This document shows, in pieces, positions 2,817 to 62,961 of a DNA stretch of 64,000 bases. The stretch is from Halanaerobium praevalens DSM 2228 (GTDB taxonomy: Bacteria; Bacillota; Halanaerobiia; Halanaerobiales; Halanaerobiaceae). The stretch's first letter is position 1, and every line of letters begins with the position of its first letter. A program made the translations under genes and the position numbers. The notes beneath the pieces are model-generated. The model ran no database searches. It saw only the letters and a program-made list of their open reading frames with translations, and was not told where the DNA came from. The stretch is from NCBI RefSeq assembly GCF_000165465.1, contig NC_017455.1, positions 1,178,001-1,242,000 on the forward strand, read 5' to 3'.

Positions 2817-3140
2817 GTGCTGTAATAATTTGCTGCGTTAAAAGTTACTCACTACTTCAACTTACTGAATGCTGATTTTAACTCTTAACCAGCAAAAAAG
2901 TTCATAAATTCTGTACTATATTAAATCTTCACGAAGTGCGTGAAGATCGAACAGTGACTAATTTACTCTCTGATATTTGTAAATATCTTTGTGAATTATA
3001 ATCATCCAAGTTAATTGTTAAAACCACTGAAAACTAACAATTATTATTTTCTTCATTTGCAGGAGTTAATCCATATCAGTTAGCGATGAACCAACCCTAT
3101 CACTTCTCTCTTTTTTGCTGATGTTCAATTATTATTGCAC
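2817..3140 (-). other. Non-coding cassette body, copy C (cassette 7)
   Basis: Third copy of the non-coding family, with the 23-nt hairpin at 2925-2947 and the GGGTTGG...CATCG motif (minus strand) near 3085-3100. It lies directly upstream of the nuclease gene of cassette 8. No conserved coding frame. Confidence 0.6.
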
Positions 3141-3269
3141 ATAACGTTACTGGGATTTGCGCTTGTGCCTGGTTCCGTTAGGAACTGGCGTAAAGCTTGC
3201 TTTTTCGTATCAGTGATTGGTTAGCCTGCAAGCTTTATGACAGAAGGCATGGCGCCAATCCCATGTTAT
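3141..3269 (-). repeat. attC-like site 5 (closes TPR cassette 6)
   Basis: A 129-bp member of the common type, with TGGGATT/AATCCCA outer arms and TAAAGCTTGC/GCAAGCTTTA inner arms. It begins 31 bp after the stop of the TPR gene. Confidence 0.75.
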
Positions 3270-3299
3270 ATGACGTACTTATCTATAAAAATCAAAAGA

Positions 3300-4877
3300 T
3301 TATTGTCTAGTTAATTTTTTAATAAAAAATTTATCAACATTATCTAGATTTATTATCATTATAAATAAAGTTTTTTCATTTTCTGATATATATAAATATC
3401 CTTTCTGGTTATCTTTTTTAAACTTCTCTGCACTACTAGAAAAATCAAATTTTTTAGTATACTTTTCTAAAGATGCTGCTCTATTAAACATTTCTCCATT
3501 AAACTTACATTCTTTACTACCCTGATACCAAAAACCTTGTATTATTTTTCCGGATTGCTTAATCTTTAATTCTTTTTCATTTTCAAATTTCCATAAACCG
3601 TCAATGATTATATTTTTATCAATAAGATTGAAATACGCTTTAGAATAATTTCTTAAAAACCTTTGTTTTATACCAGCATTTTTTATAATTTTTTCTTTTC
3701 TTTTTTCTTCATTATTTTCTAAATTTCTTAATCTATTAAGCTGATAACCTACATTTTCATGAGTATTATCTTCTAGCATCGCTTTATTAAGAACATCAGA
3801 AGCTTCTTTATAAAATCCAGAATTTATATAATCTTGAGCTAAATTTGCTGATGATAAAGTATTATTACATTTTTTTATAGATTTTTTATAGGCATCAATT
3901 TTCATTCCAGCTAAGTTTAATTTTCCATAAATTACACCAATATTGTTTAAAGCATAATTATACTCAAAATCAGAACTTACTAAATTATCATAATGTAATA
4001 ATGATAAATCATTAAATTCGCTTAAATTACTATATCCATACGCCATATTAAATATTTTTGATTTTTCTGATTTGAATTCCAATGCTTTTTCTAAAGCAAA
4101 CACTCTTAACTCTTTTTCATCAGCTTTTTTATAAAGCGAAGCAAGTGACTTATAATATATAAATAAAATATTTTCATCTGTTTCATTAGTTATTAATGAC
4201 ATGATCTTTTTATAAGCTTTTTTATTATTTAATTCAAAAACACACTCTGAACTAAAAATCATATCTTTTGCTTTTTGCAATAGATCAGTCGATTTTTCTG
4301 CTGCTTTTTCAAAATAATCTTTTGCTTTATTTAATCTATTATTTTTTTTATAACAGAAACCAATAATTCTCAATATATATTCTTCAACCTTAGGGTATTC
4401 ATTATTTTTTTCCAACTTTTTTAATTTTTCTAAAGCTTCTAAATCGCCTAAAAAGTAACTGAAATAAAGATAAATTGCAGTGTCTTCTGTTTTTTCTAAA
4501 CTTTCTGGTTTCTCTTCACTCATTTTTTTATATAAGTCATCTAATGACTCTTTATCTTTATCCAAGAATGCTATCTGTAATTTATCTTTCCAATTCTTAT
4601 CTTCTTCTTCATATTCTAAATTAATATCCATTTCTTCAGTTTCCATTAAACTAGAATCATCTTCTTGTGAAATATCTACTTCTTCACTAGTATTATTTTG
4701 TGAATCATTTTTGCTTTTTTTAACTTCTACTTCAGCATCTCTCATTTTAATTTTAAAATCTTTTCCTGTTAAAATCATTTTTAGTTCTTTTCTAAATATA
4801 ATGATAAGTATAAATACACAGATTATTAGAACTATTAACCATGATTCACCTATTGAAGTTATTAAGTCTTTAGACAT
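3300..4877 (-). CDS. Membrane-anchored TPR-repeat protein (cassette 6)
   Basis: Start chosen at the ATG at 4877 because GGGAGGAAA lies 8 nt upstream; the frame is open to 4910. The 525-residue protein starts MSKDLITS and has one membrane helix at about residues 8-28. A charged acidic linker follows, then about 250 residues of helical repeats with TPR-like spacing (for example NNEYPKVEEYILRIIGFCYK and NYALNNIGVIYGKLN), and a C-terminal part with alternating hydrophobic and charged residues that may be a small beta domain. No catalytic motif was seen. It probably sits in the membrane with the repeats in the cytoplasm as a protein-binding platform. Because its neighbours are nucleases and a HEPN protein, a role in phage sensing is possible but unproven. 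Confidence 0.6.
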   Translation of the reverse strand: MSKDLITSIGESWLIVLIICVFILIIIFRKELKMILTGKDFKIKMRDAEVEVKKSKNDSQNNTSEEVDISQEDDSSLMETEEMDINLEYEEEDKNWKDKLQIAFLDKDKESLDDLYKKMSEEKPESLEKTEDTAIYLYFSYFLGDLEALEKLKKLEKNNEYPKVEEYILRIIGFCYKKNNRLNKAKDYFEKAAEKSTDLLQKAKDMIFSSECVFELNNKKAYKKIMSLITNETDENILFIYYKSLASLYKKADEKELRVFALEKALEFKSEKSKIFNMAYGYSNLSEFNDLSLLHYDNLVSSDFEYNYALNNIGVIYGKLNLAGMKIDAYKKSIKKCNNTLSSANLAQDYINSGFYKEASDVLNKAMLEDNTHENVGYQLNRLRNLENNEEKRKEKIIKNAGIKQRFLRNYSKAYFNLIDKNIIIDGLWKFENEKELKIKQSGKIIQGFWYQGSKECKFNGEMFNRAASLEKYTKKFDFSSSAEKFKKDNQKGYLYISENEKTLFIMIINLDNVDKFFIKKLTRQ

Positions 4878-27238: not shown

Positions 27239-29458
27239 TTACTGATATTTATTAAGTTTTAAAATTTTATAATAAAGCCTTTCAGCTTCTTTTCCCATCT
27301 CAGCTATAGAATAGTCTTCTGCTACTTTTCGAGCTGCTTTCGAATTTTCTTCATATTTTCCATGTTCCTGCAGCAACTCTTCTATTTTAGCACTCCACTT
27401 TTCTAGATCTTCTTCTGTCTTATAACCATTTTTACCATTTTCAATTACATCATCTATTCCACTTGATTTAACAGCAACAACTGGATTATAGCCAGCCATA
27501 GCCTCTAATAAAACCATGCCTTGAGTTTCAGTTGTTGAAGCAAAAACAAATAAGTCAGCTGCTAAATAATAAAGTGGTATTTCTCGAAAATCAACTGCTC
27601 CAATTAATTCAATTTGCTTTTCTAAATTATTTTTTTTAATCATTTTTTCCAAATTATCTTTTTCAGAGCCAGTACCAATTATAATTAACTTAAACTTAAA
27701 CTCTGTTTTTTCTTTTAATTTTTTAATTCCATTAACTAAAAAATATAAGTTTTTTTCTTTAGACAATCTAGAAACAGAAATTAAAAGTCGATCAGCTTCA
27801 CCAATTAATTTTTCTCTTAAGCTTTTAATTTCAGCTTGGTCACGCTCATAATAATCAAAATCTATTCCTGTCGGTAAAACTTTTATATATCTACTAACTC
27901 CAATATTTCTTAAATATTCTTTAGTAGATTTAGTAGGAGTAAAGACTGCATCAGTATTATTAGCAAAATTTTCGATTAAAAAATGTGATAAACGATTAGC
28001 AAAAAATTTACGCAGAAATAGAATATCAGGTACATAATGAGCATATTTTTCTAAACGAGTATGATAAGTAAAAGCAATTGGTAATTGAAATTTATCTGCT
28101 AATTTACGCCCTTTATTGCCTAACCAAAAAGGATGATGAGCATGAACTAAATCAAAATCAAAAGCTGCAAAATCTTTTTTTATTTGGGTTGAAAAAATAT
28201 TTGTTACAGGAAACTCTAAACCAGATTCTTGATAGTGATATAATGATTTACAACGAATAATATTTTCTTCTTCTTGACTTTTTTCCTTATATTCAGGTGC
28301 AAAAATTTTAACTTCATGCCCTCTTTTTCTTAAAGCTTTAGCTAGTCTTTTAATTGAGATAGGAACTCCACCGATAACTGGAAAATAATTATTTGTAAAC
28401 ATTGCTATCTTTAACTTTTTAGCTTCAAATTCATTTTCAGCATAAGCAAAATCTCGATAATAATCAACCTCTTTGTTTATTTCACGGTGTAAAATATAAA
28501 AAACAGTTAAAGCAATAAATAAAACTAACAAAATATTAATATAGTTGGCATAGAAAAAAGATTGTAAAGCTACCCAAAGGCTAACAACAAGTTTTGACAA
28601 AGAACTTGGATTAGTTTCTAAACGCTTCATTGTAAGTTCTATTCCTTGTGGTGAAACATTAACAACTAAATAATGATAAAAGCTTTTATCATTATCAAAT
28701 ATCAATTCCCCTCCTGCTCCACCACTAATTGTATAGTGTACACCATTTATAGACTCTTGGTGATAAAGACTAAGATTAGAAGAAAATACTTGATCAACAT
28801 TAAATTTTGAAAATATATTTTGATAAAATTCCCTAGTTTTTTTAGAATTAATATACTTAGTCTTATTATCTAGTAGATAATCTGGATTTAACTTGATGGG
28901 AGCTTTATTCATAATTACAATTTTTTTCTGATACCCCTTTGCCATTTCTAATTGATTATGCAGCCATTTTTTCTGCCAATTTAAATTTGTATTAGCAGTT
29001 GTATCTAGAAAAATAAAATAGGAATCACCTAATTCGAAGGCAAAGTAAAAAGGACCAAAATATTTATAAAAGTTTTGATTACCACCATCATCAAACTCTT
29101 TTTCTCCAATTGCAGTTAAAAAAGGTAAATTTAATTTTGCTAAAGTTCTATAAAAAACTCGATATTTACTTTCATCACCATCTCTAAGATTATTACCTGT
29201 AGAAACTATAAAATCAACTTGACTTTTAGTTATTTGAGGTAAAATCTGATTATCAAAAATAGAAATTGAATTTTCTATATTCCCAACTACAGCAAAACTA
29301 TATTCTTCTTTTTTAAGATTTGCTTGTAACTTCTCTACATTTTTAATATTAACTGCCTTAAAATCTTGAATTGTATAGGGAGCATAAATTTTATAACTAA
29401 TTATAATTAAAATAATAATGACTAAAATTGATAAATATAATTTACTTCTATTTCTCAC
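27239..29458 (-). CDS. Phosphoesterase-like domain fused to GT4 glycosyltransferase
   Basis: 739 residues from a GTG with GGGGGAG upstream. There is a membrane helix at residues 7-27. Residues 50-280 look like a calcineurin-type phosphoesterase in outline, but the metal-binding positions are changed (VVGN for G-D-x-H, STGNN for G-D, GEKE for GNHD), so this part is probably not a phosphatase. A second helix near 300-320 precedes a family 4 glycosyltransferase: KIAMFTNNYFPVIGGVPISI, VHAHHPFWLG, and ASTTETQGMVLLEAMAGYNP with the E-x7-E pattern. The transferase resembles diacylglycerol glucosyltransferases that make membrane glycolipids. It overlaps the flippase-like gene upstream by 11 bp, pointing to a shared lipid or polysaccharide job. 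Confidence 0.82.
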   Translation of the reverse strand: MRNRSKLYLSILVIIILIIISYKIYAPYTIQDFKAVNIKNVEKLQANLKKEEYSFAVVGNIENSISIFDNQILPQITKSQVDFIVSTGNNLRDGDESKYRVFYRTLAKLNLPFLTAIGEKEFDDGGNQNFYKYFGPFYFAFELGDSYFIFLDTTANTNLNWQKKWLHNQLEMAKGYQKKIVIMNKAPIKLNPDYLLDNKTKYINSKKTREFYQNIFSKFNVDQVFSSNLSLYHQESINGVHYTISGGAGGELIFDNDKSFYHYLVVNVSPQGIELTMKRLETNPSSLSKLVVSLWVALQSFFYANYINILLVLFIALTVFYILHREINKEVDYYRDFAYAENEFEAKKLKIAMFTNNYFPVIGGVPISIKRLAKALRKRGHEVKIFAPEYKEKSQEEENIIRCKSLYHYQESGLEFPVTNIFSTQIKKDFAAFDFDLVHAHHPFWLGNKGRKLADKFQLPIAFTYHTRLEKYAHYVPDILFLRKFFANRLSHFLIENFANNTDAVFTPTKSTKEYLRNIGVSRYIKVLPTGIDFDYYERDQAEIKSLREKLIGEADRLLISVSRLSKEKNLYFLVNGIKKLKEKTEFKFKLIIIGTGSEKDNLEKMIKKNNLEKQIELIGAVDFREIPLYYLAADLFVFASTTETQGMVLLEAMAGYNPVVAVKSSGIDDVIENGKNGYKTEEDLEKWSAKIEELLQEHGKYEENSKAARKVAEDYSIAEMGKEAERLYYKILKLNKYQ

Positions 29459-30515
29459 CTTCTACTCCCCCTTTAATAATTAAATAAAAAAAGACAAAAA
29501 TACCTATAAAAATACCTATATATTTACTTAAAAATCTCCAATAAAATAAAAGTGGAAACAAATCTTTTTTGGCTATTAAACCTGCAAAAAGTAGTGAATA
29601 CCCTCCTTCAGCAATTCCAGCAGCCCCAGGAGTAGGAGCAAAATACATTATAAAAACAACTAAAATTTGAAGAGCTAGTATTTTTGAAAAAGCAATTTGA
29701 TAACCTAAACCTTTAATTATGAGATAAGAAAATGAAAACTCTGCTAATAAAAATACTGTTGTAAAGAAAAAAGATAAAAAAACAAAAATCTTTTTACCCT
29801 GAATAAAAAAAACTAGATCATTTGAAAAAAGCTCTAAATGTTTAAAAATATATCTGATTATTTTTCTAAACCTTTTTTTAGTTAAAAGATGTTTATTTTT
29901 TAAAAAATAAAAGAATTTATAAGCCATTTTCATAATCAATCTAACTCTAAAAATTATTAAATAGAAAATTAAAAGATAAAGAGCCAGAAAAATTCCTAAA
30001 TAAATAAAAACATAATTACCTGGTAATAAGTTAAGCATTGATTGGTGAGTTAAAACAATAAATGGTACACTCAAAAAAAGCATTGTAGCAGATAATAAGG
30101 TTCTAATTAAGACTGCAGCAGAAGATTTGCCAAGTTCTACTCCTTTTTTCTGTAAAAAATAAACCTGAGCAAAACCGCCTCCAGTTGCAAGTGGAGTGAT
30201 ATTTGAAATAAAAATATTAATAAATACTAATTGATAAATATTCCAAAATGAAATGTCTGCTTTTAAAGTTTTTAAAACAAAATATAGTCTAAGAGCATCT
30301 AAAATAAAATATAAAAAAACTAATAGCAAAAGTGAAACTAAAATATTTTTGGAAAATGAAAAAATAATATCTAGGTTATTACCTTCAGCAAAAAATTTAT
30401 TAAGATAATACATTGAAACAGCAGAAATTAAAACAAAAATTCCAAAGTAAAGCAGTGAACTTTTTAAATTAAAATATTTATCAATAAATGAGTTATTATC
30501 TTCTTGCTTAATCAA
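29448..30515 (-). CDS. Lysylphosphatidylglycerol synthase-type (UPF0104) membrane protein
   Basis: 355 residues from the TTG at 30515, chosen because AAAGGAG lies 9 nt upstream; the frame extends to 30590. Eight or so membrane helices are visible. The motifs ITPLATGGGFAQVYFL and APTPGAAGIAEGGYSLLFAG are the two conserved signatures of the LPG_synthase_TM (AglD2/GtrA-neighbour) family, which moves glycolipids across membranes. The soluble lysyl-transferase domain of true MprF is absent, so it is unlikely to make lysyl-PG. It overlaps and precedes the glycosyltransferase gene; the two probably form an operon that makes and flips a glycolipid. Confidence 0.85.
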   Translation of the reverse strand: MIKQEDNNSFIDKYFNLKSSLLYFGIFVLISAVSMYYLNKFFAEGNNLDIIFSFSKNILVSLLLLVFLYFILDALRLYFVLKTLKADISFWNIYQLVFINIFISNITPLATGGGFAQVYFLQKKGVELGKSSAAVLIRTLLSATMLFLSVPFIVLTHQSMLNLLPGNYVFIYLGIFLALYLLIFYLIIFRVRLIMKMAYKFFYFLKNKHLLTKKRFRKIIRYIFKHLELFSNDLVFFIQGKKIFVFLSFFFTTVFLLAEFSFSYLIIKGLGYQIAFSKILALQILVVFIMYFAPTPGAAGIAEGGYSLLFAGLIAKKDLFPLLFYWRFLSKYIGIFIGIFVFFYLIIKGGVEGEK

Positions 30516-30679
30516 AATTAAATTCTCCTTTACTAGAAATAATTCTAATAATTGACTAAATCTATTTATTAGCTTAAAAGCTTTAAACAAATAAAAATCC
30601 CCAATAAATATAATTATCGACTCAATTATATTATATTGAGGAGTAAAAGTAAAAGTTAATTAATGATTGAGATTATAAT

Positions 30680-45313: not shown

Positions 45314-46636
45314 CTAATCAGCTCCCTCTAACAATTCAGAAATTATATTATTTTTAGCTTCTCTTAAAATTTCTCTAATTATTTTTTGATCCGGATAAAA
45401 CTTGAAATTAGATCGATTTTCTGAATCAGAACTTCCATTCCATATTTCTCCCCATTCTGCTAAAAGCTCAGCTTCTAAGTCAGGATCAGTTTTTATTCTA
45501 TTAATCAAATCATCTAAATGTTGATAAATAGGATTATTTTCTAATTCAGCTGCCAAAGAATCTAAAGCAGGAGCTGTTTTTAAATAAAGTGAATTAGGAT
45601 ATAAATACGGTTCTTTTTCTAAACACCTATTTTTAAGATAATCTTTTAAAGTAGCAGCAATTTCTGCTCTATTATTTTCAAGATAATTATTTATTTCACT
45701 TCGACCTTTAATTAAAATTCTTAAAATCACTGCCTTAATTTGATATTTATTATTTTGATTTTTTATTTTTAAGTTTTTGCTTAAACTCTCAGTTTTTTCG
45801 GCTAAAAGTATTTGTAAATCACTTAGATTTTCAATTTTCTTTTCTTTTTCTAATTCAATTTCTAGTTTTTGAAAAATAACTGGAGCCAAAGATATAAATT
45901 GTTCTTTTATTTTTAAATTTTGATCAACTTCTACTAAAATTGCCCCTTTTACGCCTTCTTCGCGAATATTATGAGCTTGTAAAGTACCAGGAAAAAAGAT
46001 AGCTGGATTTTCTTTTTTTATTTTTTGATATTGATGTAAATGACCTAAAGCCCAATAATTAATATTTTTTTTAGTTAAAAGCTCAGTCTTATTAGTTGGC
46101 ACATAACGCTTATTATTTTTATTTAAGGCTGTATGTAATAAAGCTATATTAAAAACAGATTGATCTGGAGCATTATAATTTTGATACATTTTTCTAGCTT
46201 CAAATTTTTGCTGATAGGATTGACCTAAAATTCTAGCTTTTAATTTAGAATTTTTATAATAATTTTTGATTTCAACTTCAGTACTAGAAAAGTAAAAAAC
46301 ATTAGCAGGTAAAGAAAATACTTCTTTTTCCACCCCTGCTGGATCATGGTTGCCAGATATAATATATATTTTAATATTTTTTTGTTCTAAATATTTAGCC
46401 TGTTTTAAAAAAAAGCGGCTAGCCTTAATTGATCTTGCTGCCTGATCATAAAGGTCACCAGCTATTAAAATAAAATCAACTTCTTCTTTTATGGCTAAAT
46501 CTACTAAATTTTGCAAAGCTTTCTTAGCGGCCTGCTGCAGTATTTGCTTTAGCTTCTTATTTTCTGGTTGGTTATAACTTAAGTTTTGTCCCAAATGAAT
46601 ATCAGCTGTATGAATAAATTTTATTTTTTCTGCCAT
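45314..46636 (-). CDS. SbcD/YhaO-like metallophosphoesterase (pair 1)
   Basis: 440 residues. The calcineurin-type core with its metal ligands is complete: FIHTADIHLGQNL (D-x-H), ILIAGDLYDQ, ISGNHDPAGVE (GNHD) and ALGHLHQYQKI (G-H-x-H). The C-terminal 180 residues are helical and would contact the coiled-coil partner encoded next to it. By family it is a Mre11-like DNA exo/endonuclease subunit. GAGGGAG precedes the ATG. Order and coupling are the same as in the second pair at 59426-62961. Confidence 0.9.
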   Translation of the reverse strand: MAEKIKFIHTADIHLGQNLSYNQPENKKLKQILQQAAKKALQNLVDLAIKEEVDFILIAGDLYDQAARSIKASRFFLKQAKYLEQKNIKIYIISGNHDPAGVEKEVFSLPANVFYFSSTEVEIKNYYKNSKLKARILGQSYQQKFEARKMYQNYNAPDQSVFNIALLHTALNKNNKRYVPTNKTELLTKKNINYWALGHLHQYQKIKKENPAIFFPGTLQAHNIREEGVKGAILVEVDQNLKIKEQFISLAPVIFQKLEIELEKEKKIENLSDLQILLAEKTESLSKNLKIKNQNNKYQIKAVILRILIKGRSEINNYLENNRAEIAATLKDYLKNRCLEKEPYLYPNSLYLKTAPALDSLAAELENNPIYQHLDDLINRIKTDPDLEAELLAEWGEIWNGSSDSENRSNFKFYPDQKIIREILREAKNNIISELLEGAD

Positions 46637-61855: not shown

Positions 61856-62961
61856 TCTTGCACCTCTTTTAACATTTTATAAGCTAGATCTAGAGCCTGA
61901 CTATCTGTTTCTAATTCAGCTAGAAGTTGATAAGGAAAAGAATTTTCAGCAAAATCTTGAGCAATTGATTCTCTATCTAATTTTCTTTGTAAGTCACTTT
62001 GATCTATTTTAGCATAAAAACAATTATCTTTAAGTTGATTAATTAACTTTTCTCGCTGACAAAACTCTTCTTTAGTTAACTCTCCTTTTAATTTTAAACG
62101 CAATACTTTTTTAGAAACAGCTTGAGCCATTATTTTTTCAACTAAATTTTCTAATTCTAGAAGTGAATCTATTTTTACTTCTAAATCAGAAAAGTGATAA
62201 TTACCTGTTTTTATTCTTTCAGCTTTAACTTCTTTATTTGCTTGTAGTTCTAGATACCAAGCATAACCAGGATGTTTACAATCCATACCATCTGGCTCTG
62301 GAGTTCCATTATTAAATATTTTTTGATTAATAACTTTATCTTGTTGGGGATAAGTTAAATGAGAATGGCCTAATAAACAGAGATCCATTTCCAAATTTAG
62401 AAGTTCTGCTTTGGTCATTTTAAAATAATTATCTCTTAAATCAGGTGAAAAACCAGCTAGAGCTCCATGGGCTAATAATAAATGATAGTTAGCAGCTGCT
62501 TTTTCCTTTAAATTTTTAATCCAAGTTAAGTTATTTTCCGAAGAAAGTTTAGAAGCACAAGGAGCAGGATAAATGGCGGCAGAAATACCAAAATCATGAA
62601 GTAAATAAACTTTTGGTTCAGCTAAAATTAACATCCGACCTTTAATATTTTCTTTAAAATACTGCCATAATTTAGTCATCTCATCTTTATAATCATGATT
62701 TCCAGGTAAAATTAAGATTGCATCTCCAGCAAAGCTATCTAGAATATTAATTGTCTTTTTGATATTTTCTTCTTTAATATTTAATTTGTCAAACAAATCA
62801 CCAGCTACAACTAATAAGTTAGTATTTCTTTTATTAGCCTCTATAATTACATTTTCTAAAGCAAGATAACGAGCGTTTTCCAATTTTTTACTAATTTGAG
62901 GATATTGATTAAACTTCATCCCTAAATGAATATCCCCTGTATGCATAATTTTTAAAGTCAT
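61852..62961 (-). CDS. SbcD-like metallophosphoesterase (pair 2)
   Basis: 369 residues. Metal-binding motifs are intact: IMHTGDIHLGMKF (D-x-H), VVAGDLFDKLN, ILPGNHDYKDEM (GNHD) and LLGHSHLTYPQ (G-H-x-H). By family it is the Mre11-like nuclease partner of the ATPase that follows with a four-base ATGA overlap. GAAGGAGG precedes the ATG. A gene for a protein with a Cys zinc motif lies upstream on the same strand, about 100 bp away. Confidence 0.92.
   Translation of the reverse strand: MTLKIMHTGDIHLGMKFNQYPQISKKLENARYLALENVIIEANKRNTNLLVVAGDLFDKLNIKEENIKKTINILDSFAGDAILILPGNHDYKDEMTKLWQYFKENIKGRMLILAEPKVYLLHDFGISAAIYPAPCASKLSSENNLTWIKNLKEKAAANYHLLLAHGALAGFSPDLRDNYFKMTKAELLNLEMDLCLLGHSHLTYPQQDKVINQKIFNNGTPEPDGMDCKHPGYAWYLELQANKEVKAERIKTGNYHFSDLEVKIDSLLELENLVEKIMAQAVSKKVLRLKLKGELTKEEFCQREKLINQLKDNCFYAKIDQSDLQRKLDRESIAQDFAENSFPYQLLAELETDSQALDLAYKMLKEVQE

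Follow-up and report, generated by a model that had tools for sequence, protein, structure and literature searches.

How cells match lipid synthesis at the inner face of a membrane to delivery at its outer face is poorly understood. In a 64,000-nucleotide stretch of Halanaerobium praevalens DSM 2228 (the window; contig NC_017455.1, positions 1,178,001–1,242,000), a gene starting with GTG encodes a 739-amino-acid protein in which an N-terminal domain (N-domain) between two transmembrane (TM) segments is followed by a GT4 glycosyltransferase, and this gene overlaps by 11 nt a gene for a flippase-like protein. An earlier note, made from the nucleotide sequence, had described the N-domain as a membrane-anchored phosphoesterase lacking most metal ligands, and had suggested that it may hold a phosphorylated lipid head group for presentation to the transferase. 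What, then, does a phosphoesterase domain without a metal site do when joined to this transferase and paired with a putative flippase? Coordinates of the features are collected in Table 1.

Table 1. Features of the fusion gene and its flippase-like partner, in window coordinates; residue numbers refer to the 739-residue protein
Feature	Coordinates	Strand	Evidence
Fusion gene, 739 aa: TM1, pseudo-phosphoesterase, TM2, GT4	27239..29458	minus	ORF list, Pfam, NCBIfam, hydropathy
TM1 (aa 7-25)	29384..29440	minus	hydropathy; equivalent in 15/15 fusion proteins
Purple acid phosphatase (PAP)-like pseudo-phosphoesterase domain (aa 28-302)	28553..29377	minus	PDB profile search, Foldseek, VIA-align
Motif I ligand, Asp to Asn60	29279..29281	minus	Asn (12) or Glu (3) in the 15 fusions; Asp in 9/9 relatives
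Motif II bridging Asp to Asn89	29192..29194	minus	N in 15/15 fusions; D in 9/9 relatives
Motif III (GNHD/E in relatives) to G-E-K-E	29096..29104	minus	Asn to E119, His to K120; last acidic residue, E121, kept
Motif IV His to Asn184	28907..28909	minus	Asn (11) or Gly (4) in the 15 fusions
Motif V (GHxH in relatives) to Asn228, Ser230	28769..28777	minus	alignment
TM2 (aa 306-324)	28487..28543	minus	hydropathy; equivalent in 15/15 fusion proteins
GT4 catalytic region (aa 346-739)	27242..28423	minus	Pfam, NCBIfam, PDB sequence matches
Flippase-like gene (LPG_synthase_TM / TIGR00374)	29448..30590	minus	PF03706, 7.6e-35, 121.3 bits against a gathering cut-off of 33.4 bits

The glycosyltransferase domain and its lipid context

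The Pfam matches above cut-off in the 739-residue protein were glycosyltransferase domains only (PF13439, residues 362–535; PF00534, residues 548–711). They make up a complete GT4 domain in which both glutamates of the GT4 motif E-x7-E (E644 and E652) were invariant in the seven sequences aligned (7/7). Its nearest solved sequence relatives are group 1 glycosyltransferases, e.g. 2jjm and the GlcNAc-malate synthase entry 5d00. The best NCBIfam match, covering nearly the full profile length, was alpha-monoglucosyldiacylglycerol synthase (NF049988, E = 7.7e-57), reached at 193.4 bits, short of the equivalog cut-off of 400 bits, while the GlcN-PG synthase/flippase equivalogs NF053787 and NF053789 (cut-offs 480 and 320) gave only 106.5 and 60.7 bits. 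Relative to NF049988, the fusion has an extra N-terminal membrane domain. Hydropathy of the Roseobacter fusions showed a few additional weak hydrophobic segments, which lie inside the soluble domains.

For the lipids of the genus, excerpts of two H. congolense lipidome papers (PMC10782966, PMC9687094) name no glycosyl diacylglycerol, and those of the former record HexCer species and unusually high diacylglycerol, both of which might bear on a diacylglycerol-using glycosyltransferase. These lipidomic data and the excerpted Halanaerobium isolate paper (PMC13340142) leave glycosyl diacylglycerol production unsettled.

The flippase-like partner

A flippase-like gene lies directly upstream, with 4–17 nt of overlap, in 14 of the 15 fusion loci (the window, L001–L008, L037, L039 and L080–L082), the assignment resting on PF03706 scores for the window gene and that of L040, on annotation for the plasmid genes and on similarity or position for the others. 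No flippase gene adjoins the fusion in the Halomonas copy. The window gene is the only PF03706 gene in its own genome, and its TTG start is perhaps placed too far upstream, orthologues being 353–364 residues long. GT4 genes that are not fused occur in another family of the class, where four of the five readable loci (L040–L043) have the GT4 following a flippase gene and L044 does not. The window and Sulfitobacter flippase-like proteins scored 179 bits against each other, more than either reached against those beside non-fused GT4 genes (up to 139 and 126 bits, respectively).

A phosphoesterase fold

Searched as a single sequence, the window N-domain gave no Pfam phosphoesterase match and nothing significant; PF00149 matched in only 2 of 11 relatives (best 7.7e-5). 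A profile built from 11 N-domains retrieved PAPs from the PDB (1kbp and others) at E = 7e-6. An AlphaFold2 model of the N-domain, made from a 9-sequence alignment and of middling confidence (pLDDT 65.4, pTM 0.70), was searched with Foldseek, which returned Rv0805 as best match (4e-7) and GAP50 (7e-7), with GpdQ and Vps29 also among the structural matches. By VIA-align, the model superposed on GpdQ with Z of 14.1 (rmsd 3.7, 204 aligned), on PAPs with Z of about 13 and on Rv0805 with Z of 13–14. Sequence profile and structure model agree, and on these two lines a calcineurin-like, PAP-like fold is confirmed as the predicted fold of the N-domain. The model of the full-length fusion was poor (pTM 0.44), leaving the domain interface and inter-domain geometry unreadable.

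Elsewhere in the window, two further PF00149 matches, both on the minus strand and well above cut-off, lie at 46028–46624 and 62359–62955. PF00149 was matched at 10 places in the whole genome, none of them the fusion locus.

Complete loss of the metal site

The 15 fusion proteins were aligned with nine non-fused Bacillota relatives. All seven metal or catalytic positions (D, D, NH, H, HxH) are intact in 9/9 relatives, a count in which two relatives with LSHIH in place of GHxH and two with ANH in place of GNH are taken as intact, and 0/7 are kept in any of the fusions, so that by alignment the loss is complete, not partial. Several of the vacated positions vary. The motif III Asn (position 119) is replaced by E in six fusions, R in three, S in two and otherwise by T, K, V or Q, and the His (position 120) by R in six, N in six, K in two and Q in one, with the closing acidic residue (E121) being E in all 15. 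In motif V, the first His (position 228) has become N in 12 and G in three, and the second (position 230) E in eight, T in two, A in two and S, G or D in the remainder. H262 is invariant in the 15 fusions and equally conserved in the nine intact relatives. At the level of sequence, the fusion alignment shows no obvious substitute cluster of conserved Asp and His residues.

Much of the earlier description therefore stands: the degenerate phosphoesterase domain, which fold searches, the structure prediction it had proposed and the ligand comparison all bear out, the membrane anchoring, the complete GT4 domain, the overlapping flippase-like gene and the lipid-glycosylation context. Of the two findings that the earlier note said would refute it, a predicted structure lacking the phosphoesterase fold and another intact metal site, neither emerged from the model or the alignment. 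Three of the five motifs had been named as altered, correctly; that most ligands were missing understated the loss, which extends to motifs IV and V.

Constraint on the N-domain

Pairwise NG86 dN/dS was 0.07–0.22 for the N-domain (27 of 28 pairs computable) and 0.04–0.11 for the GT4 domain (25 of 28), values that are rough, synonymous sites being near saturation. The N-domains of the other 14 fusions are 29–68% identical to that of the window protein. The dead domain is not decaying, because it is under purifying selection; a decaying gene was ruled out, all 15 proteins being open and dN/dS low. Invariant positions made up 17/62 of the former active-site loops, as against 18/166 elsewhere (Fisher p = 0.0035; ligand positions were excluded and the loop intervals were picked by the analyst). 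Conserved residues near the pocket that are specific to the fusions are S64, S86, N89, E96, K98 and G250. Since the fusion recurs in distantly related marine bacteria, mostly next to a predicted lipid flippase gene, the domain has probably been retained for some function, for instance sensing or docking.

Distribution and ancestry of the fusion

The N-domain profile was run over 61 genomes (the source genome and relatives), of which 11 carry the fusion, 10 of them at full length; the eleventh copy (G010) ends at contig ends. The carriers are 9 of 12 genomes of the genus, one of the two remaining genomes of the family, and one genome (G051) of another family in the class. Weak partial matches only were seen in two further genomes, and one weak extra match in G009. 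A sample of 398 genomes of the phylum gave matches in 36, and at full length only in its three fusion carriers. A tblastn search beyond Bacillota recovered the N-domain from 33 plasmid records (30 from Pseudosulfitobacter and one each from Halomonas, Sulfitobacter and Alloyangia) of PLSDB, a biased set in that 30 of the 33 matches come from one Pseudosulfitobacter species. In all four records opened, the N-domain is fused to GT4 and the protein is named glycosyltransferase only. The fusion is found in Halomonas and three Roseobacter genera and, truncated, in Desulfosarcina.

That the fusion is unique to Halanaerobiales is ruled out by the copies on Halomonas, Roseobacter and Desulfosarcina plasmids; a survey limited to that order, as proposed earlier, would not have reached the fusions outside it. 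A phage origin was searched for among 50,697 phage records and a defence link with PADLOC, with no match in either.

In the N-domain tree, in which nine of 17 loci from relatives not in the class (L062–L078) were included, all 15 fusions form one clade (100/100), split into Proteobacteria and Halanaerobiia. Eleven of the 17 loci were read, with ligands intact, and the other six were unread. The GT4 tree gives the same two groups with weak union (65/50; 63% of 200 bootstrap trees). Of the 19 non-fused loci listed, 8 went into it and 11 were dropped when the motif filter gave no ORF. Because of this weak support and the dropped loci, it is the N-domain tree, not the GT4 tree, that carries the case for a single origin. 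Two intact relatives (L062 and L074) have a hydrophobic segment on both sides of the phosphoesterase domain, the layout of the N-terminal half of the fusion. The likely history, we infer, is that an anchored phosphoesterase joined a cytosolic GT4 already travelling with a flippase gene, and that the metal site was lost before the fusion lineages parted.

Proposed role and alternatives

The N-terminus and the GT4 domain are predicted to lie in the cytosol and the pseudo-phosphoesterase outside, because the sequence has two TM segments and a positively charged N-terminus, and GT4 needs a cytosolic nucleotide sugar. On present evidence the most likely reading, although we hold it at slightly less than even confidence, is a glycolipid synthase–flippase cassette whose exofacial domain has no catalytic role and serves for binding or docking. 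At the cytosolic face, the GT4 domain would glycosylate a membrane lipid, of which diacylglycerol or a phospholipid is the likeliest, and the LPG_synthase_TM protein would carry the resulting glycolipid across to the outer leaflet. The domain outside would descend from a membrane-anchored PAP-like enzyme whose whole metal site was lost once, and may now bind a lipid head group or dock on the flippase, which would link synthesis inside to conditions in the outer leaflet. Against this reading stand the Halomonas copy with no adjoining flippase gene, the equivalog scores far below their cut-offs and the lipidome excerpts that name no glycosyl diacylglycerol. Were the outer domain to read the outer leaflet or dock on the flippase, the cassette would offer a compact, testable model of such coupling, and a protein annotated merely as a glycosyltransferase now has a lipid-related hypothesis attached to it. 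A more specific version, rather unlikely as it stands, is that of a cassette shared horizontally across phyla in which the exofacial pseudo-phosphatase senses a flipped glycolipid, or else a phosphorylated head group, in the outer leaflet and gates the cytosolic lipid glycosyltransferase via the two membrane helices; if true, the cassette would carry within it a feedback sensor that reads glycolipid asymmetry across the bilayer.

The domain could instead be purely structural, orienting, dimerising or stabilising the transferase at the membrane without a ligand. The variation of former ligand positions among lineages (N/E, N/G) fits such a role, as does the presence among the structural matches of GAP50 and Vps29, degenerate members of the fold that serve as anchors or scaffolds; the enrichment of invariant residues at the former active-site rim, several of them fusion-specific, argues against it, and we regard it as unlikely, if worth serious consideration. 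Head-group presentation to the fused transferase, as the earlier note had it, starts from a fold, an anchor, a transferase and a flippase that are all real. It is met by TM segments flanking the domain in 15/15 fusions, which predict domain and transferase on opposite faces of the membrane, and is the least probable of the readings weighed here. Residual catalysis, metal-free or with a relocated metal, e.g. head-group exchange using E121 and H262, would account for the invariance of both residues in all 15 fusions, but the standard ligands are all gone and H262 is no less conserved in intact relatives (9/9), which makes it very doubtful. Improbable too is that the fusion is left over from a phosphate-starvation module of the PlcP-Agt type whose phospholipase C and glycosyltransferase were fused and whose lipase died. 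Excerpts of two papers (PMC4796936, PMC8231724) place the gene for PlcP, a Mn-dependent metallophosphoesterase, beside that for a lipid glycosyltransferase of family GT4 in marine bacteria, and Roseobacters are among the carriers of the fusion; on the other side, the closest relatives recovered with an intact site resemble PAPs, two of these having membrane anchors in a fusion-like layout, and purifying selection argues against a relic.

Comparison with known systems

In PlcP-Agt, as in the fusion, a protein of the calcineurin superfamily is linked to a lipid glycosyltransferase of family GT4. By its published description, PlcP is a catalytically active Mn enzyme with a gene of its own, whereas the fused domain is PAP-like, metal-less and predicted to be exofacial. 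With the PAP/GpdQ/Rv0805 family, the N-domain has in common the fold (Z 13–14) and sequence homology (E = 7e-6), but all seven metal or catalytic positions of that family are lost. Vps29 is a degenerate member of the phosphoesterase fold that serves as anchor or scaffold. GAP50 of Plasmodium is, to our knowledge, not fused to a glycosyltransferase. It shares the PAP-like fold with the N-domain and acts as a membrane anchor (entry title 3tgh), with no close relation between the two shown.

The pairing of genes has its closest counterparts in gpgSDF of Pseudomonas aeruginosa, a GT4 and flippase operon making GlcN-PG (PMC12713373), and hexSDF of Clostridioides difficile, a glycosyltransferase and flippase operon for an aminohexosyl glycolipid (PMC10128005). 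As excerpted, both papers describe what the cassette also has, a lipid glycosyltransferase and a predicted MprF-like/YbhN flippase in one operon, and GpgS, like the transferase of the fusion, was assigned to GT4 (by CD-Search). The cassette differs in that no deacetylase gene adjoins the window pair, and no phosphoesterase domain is mentioned in the excerpts for GpgSDF or HexSDF. No paper on the fusion was found in the open-licence PMC literature, and excerpts of a Desulfovibrio study (PMC5193443) and of a paper on the lipocone (PMC12419801) do not describe it.

Neighbouring genes and further copies

In the window, the pair is neighboured by genes for a LacI-type regulator and a DEAD-box helicase, named by reading their translations. 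Two cassette copies in differing surroundings are present in both H. congolense and H. saccharolyticum WC1 (L002/L005 and L003/L004), and in L004 a second flippase-like gene (2905–3945), 42% identical to that of the window, stands directly before the cassette flippase gene. Sodium/calcium exchanger genes lie beside or near the cassette in Halanaerobium (L003, 7253–8272; L005, 7260–8276; L009, 1802–2821) and, by annotation, near it on Roseobacter plasmids (L080, 4731–5696; L081, 5464–6429). An exchanger is a possible third functional member of the cassette, but the two exchanger kinds compared are only 31% identical, and most cassette loci are without an exchanger. The Desulfosarcina plasmid has a truncated copy of 500 residues (L086, 5962–7461), the open part of which begins near the N-domain end and which adjoins recombinase and Tn3 transposase genes, and the truncated copy on a Sagittula plasmid (L087, 5079–5741) consists of a GT4 fragment only. 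An intact relative with a TM-phosphoesterase-TM layout (L089, 6084–9041) adjoins PAP2 phosphatase and DedA/VTT genes, and a VTT gene is found downstream of the Halomonas fusion (L079, 10264–10812).
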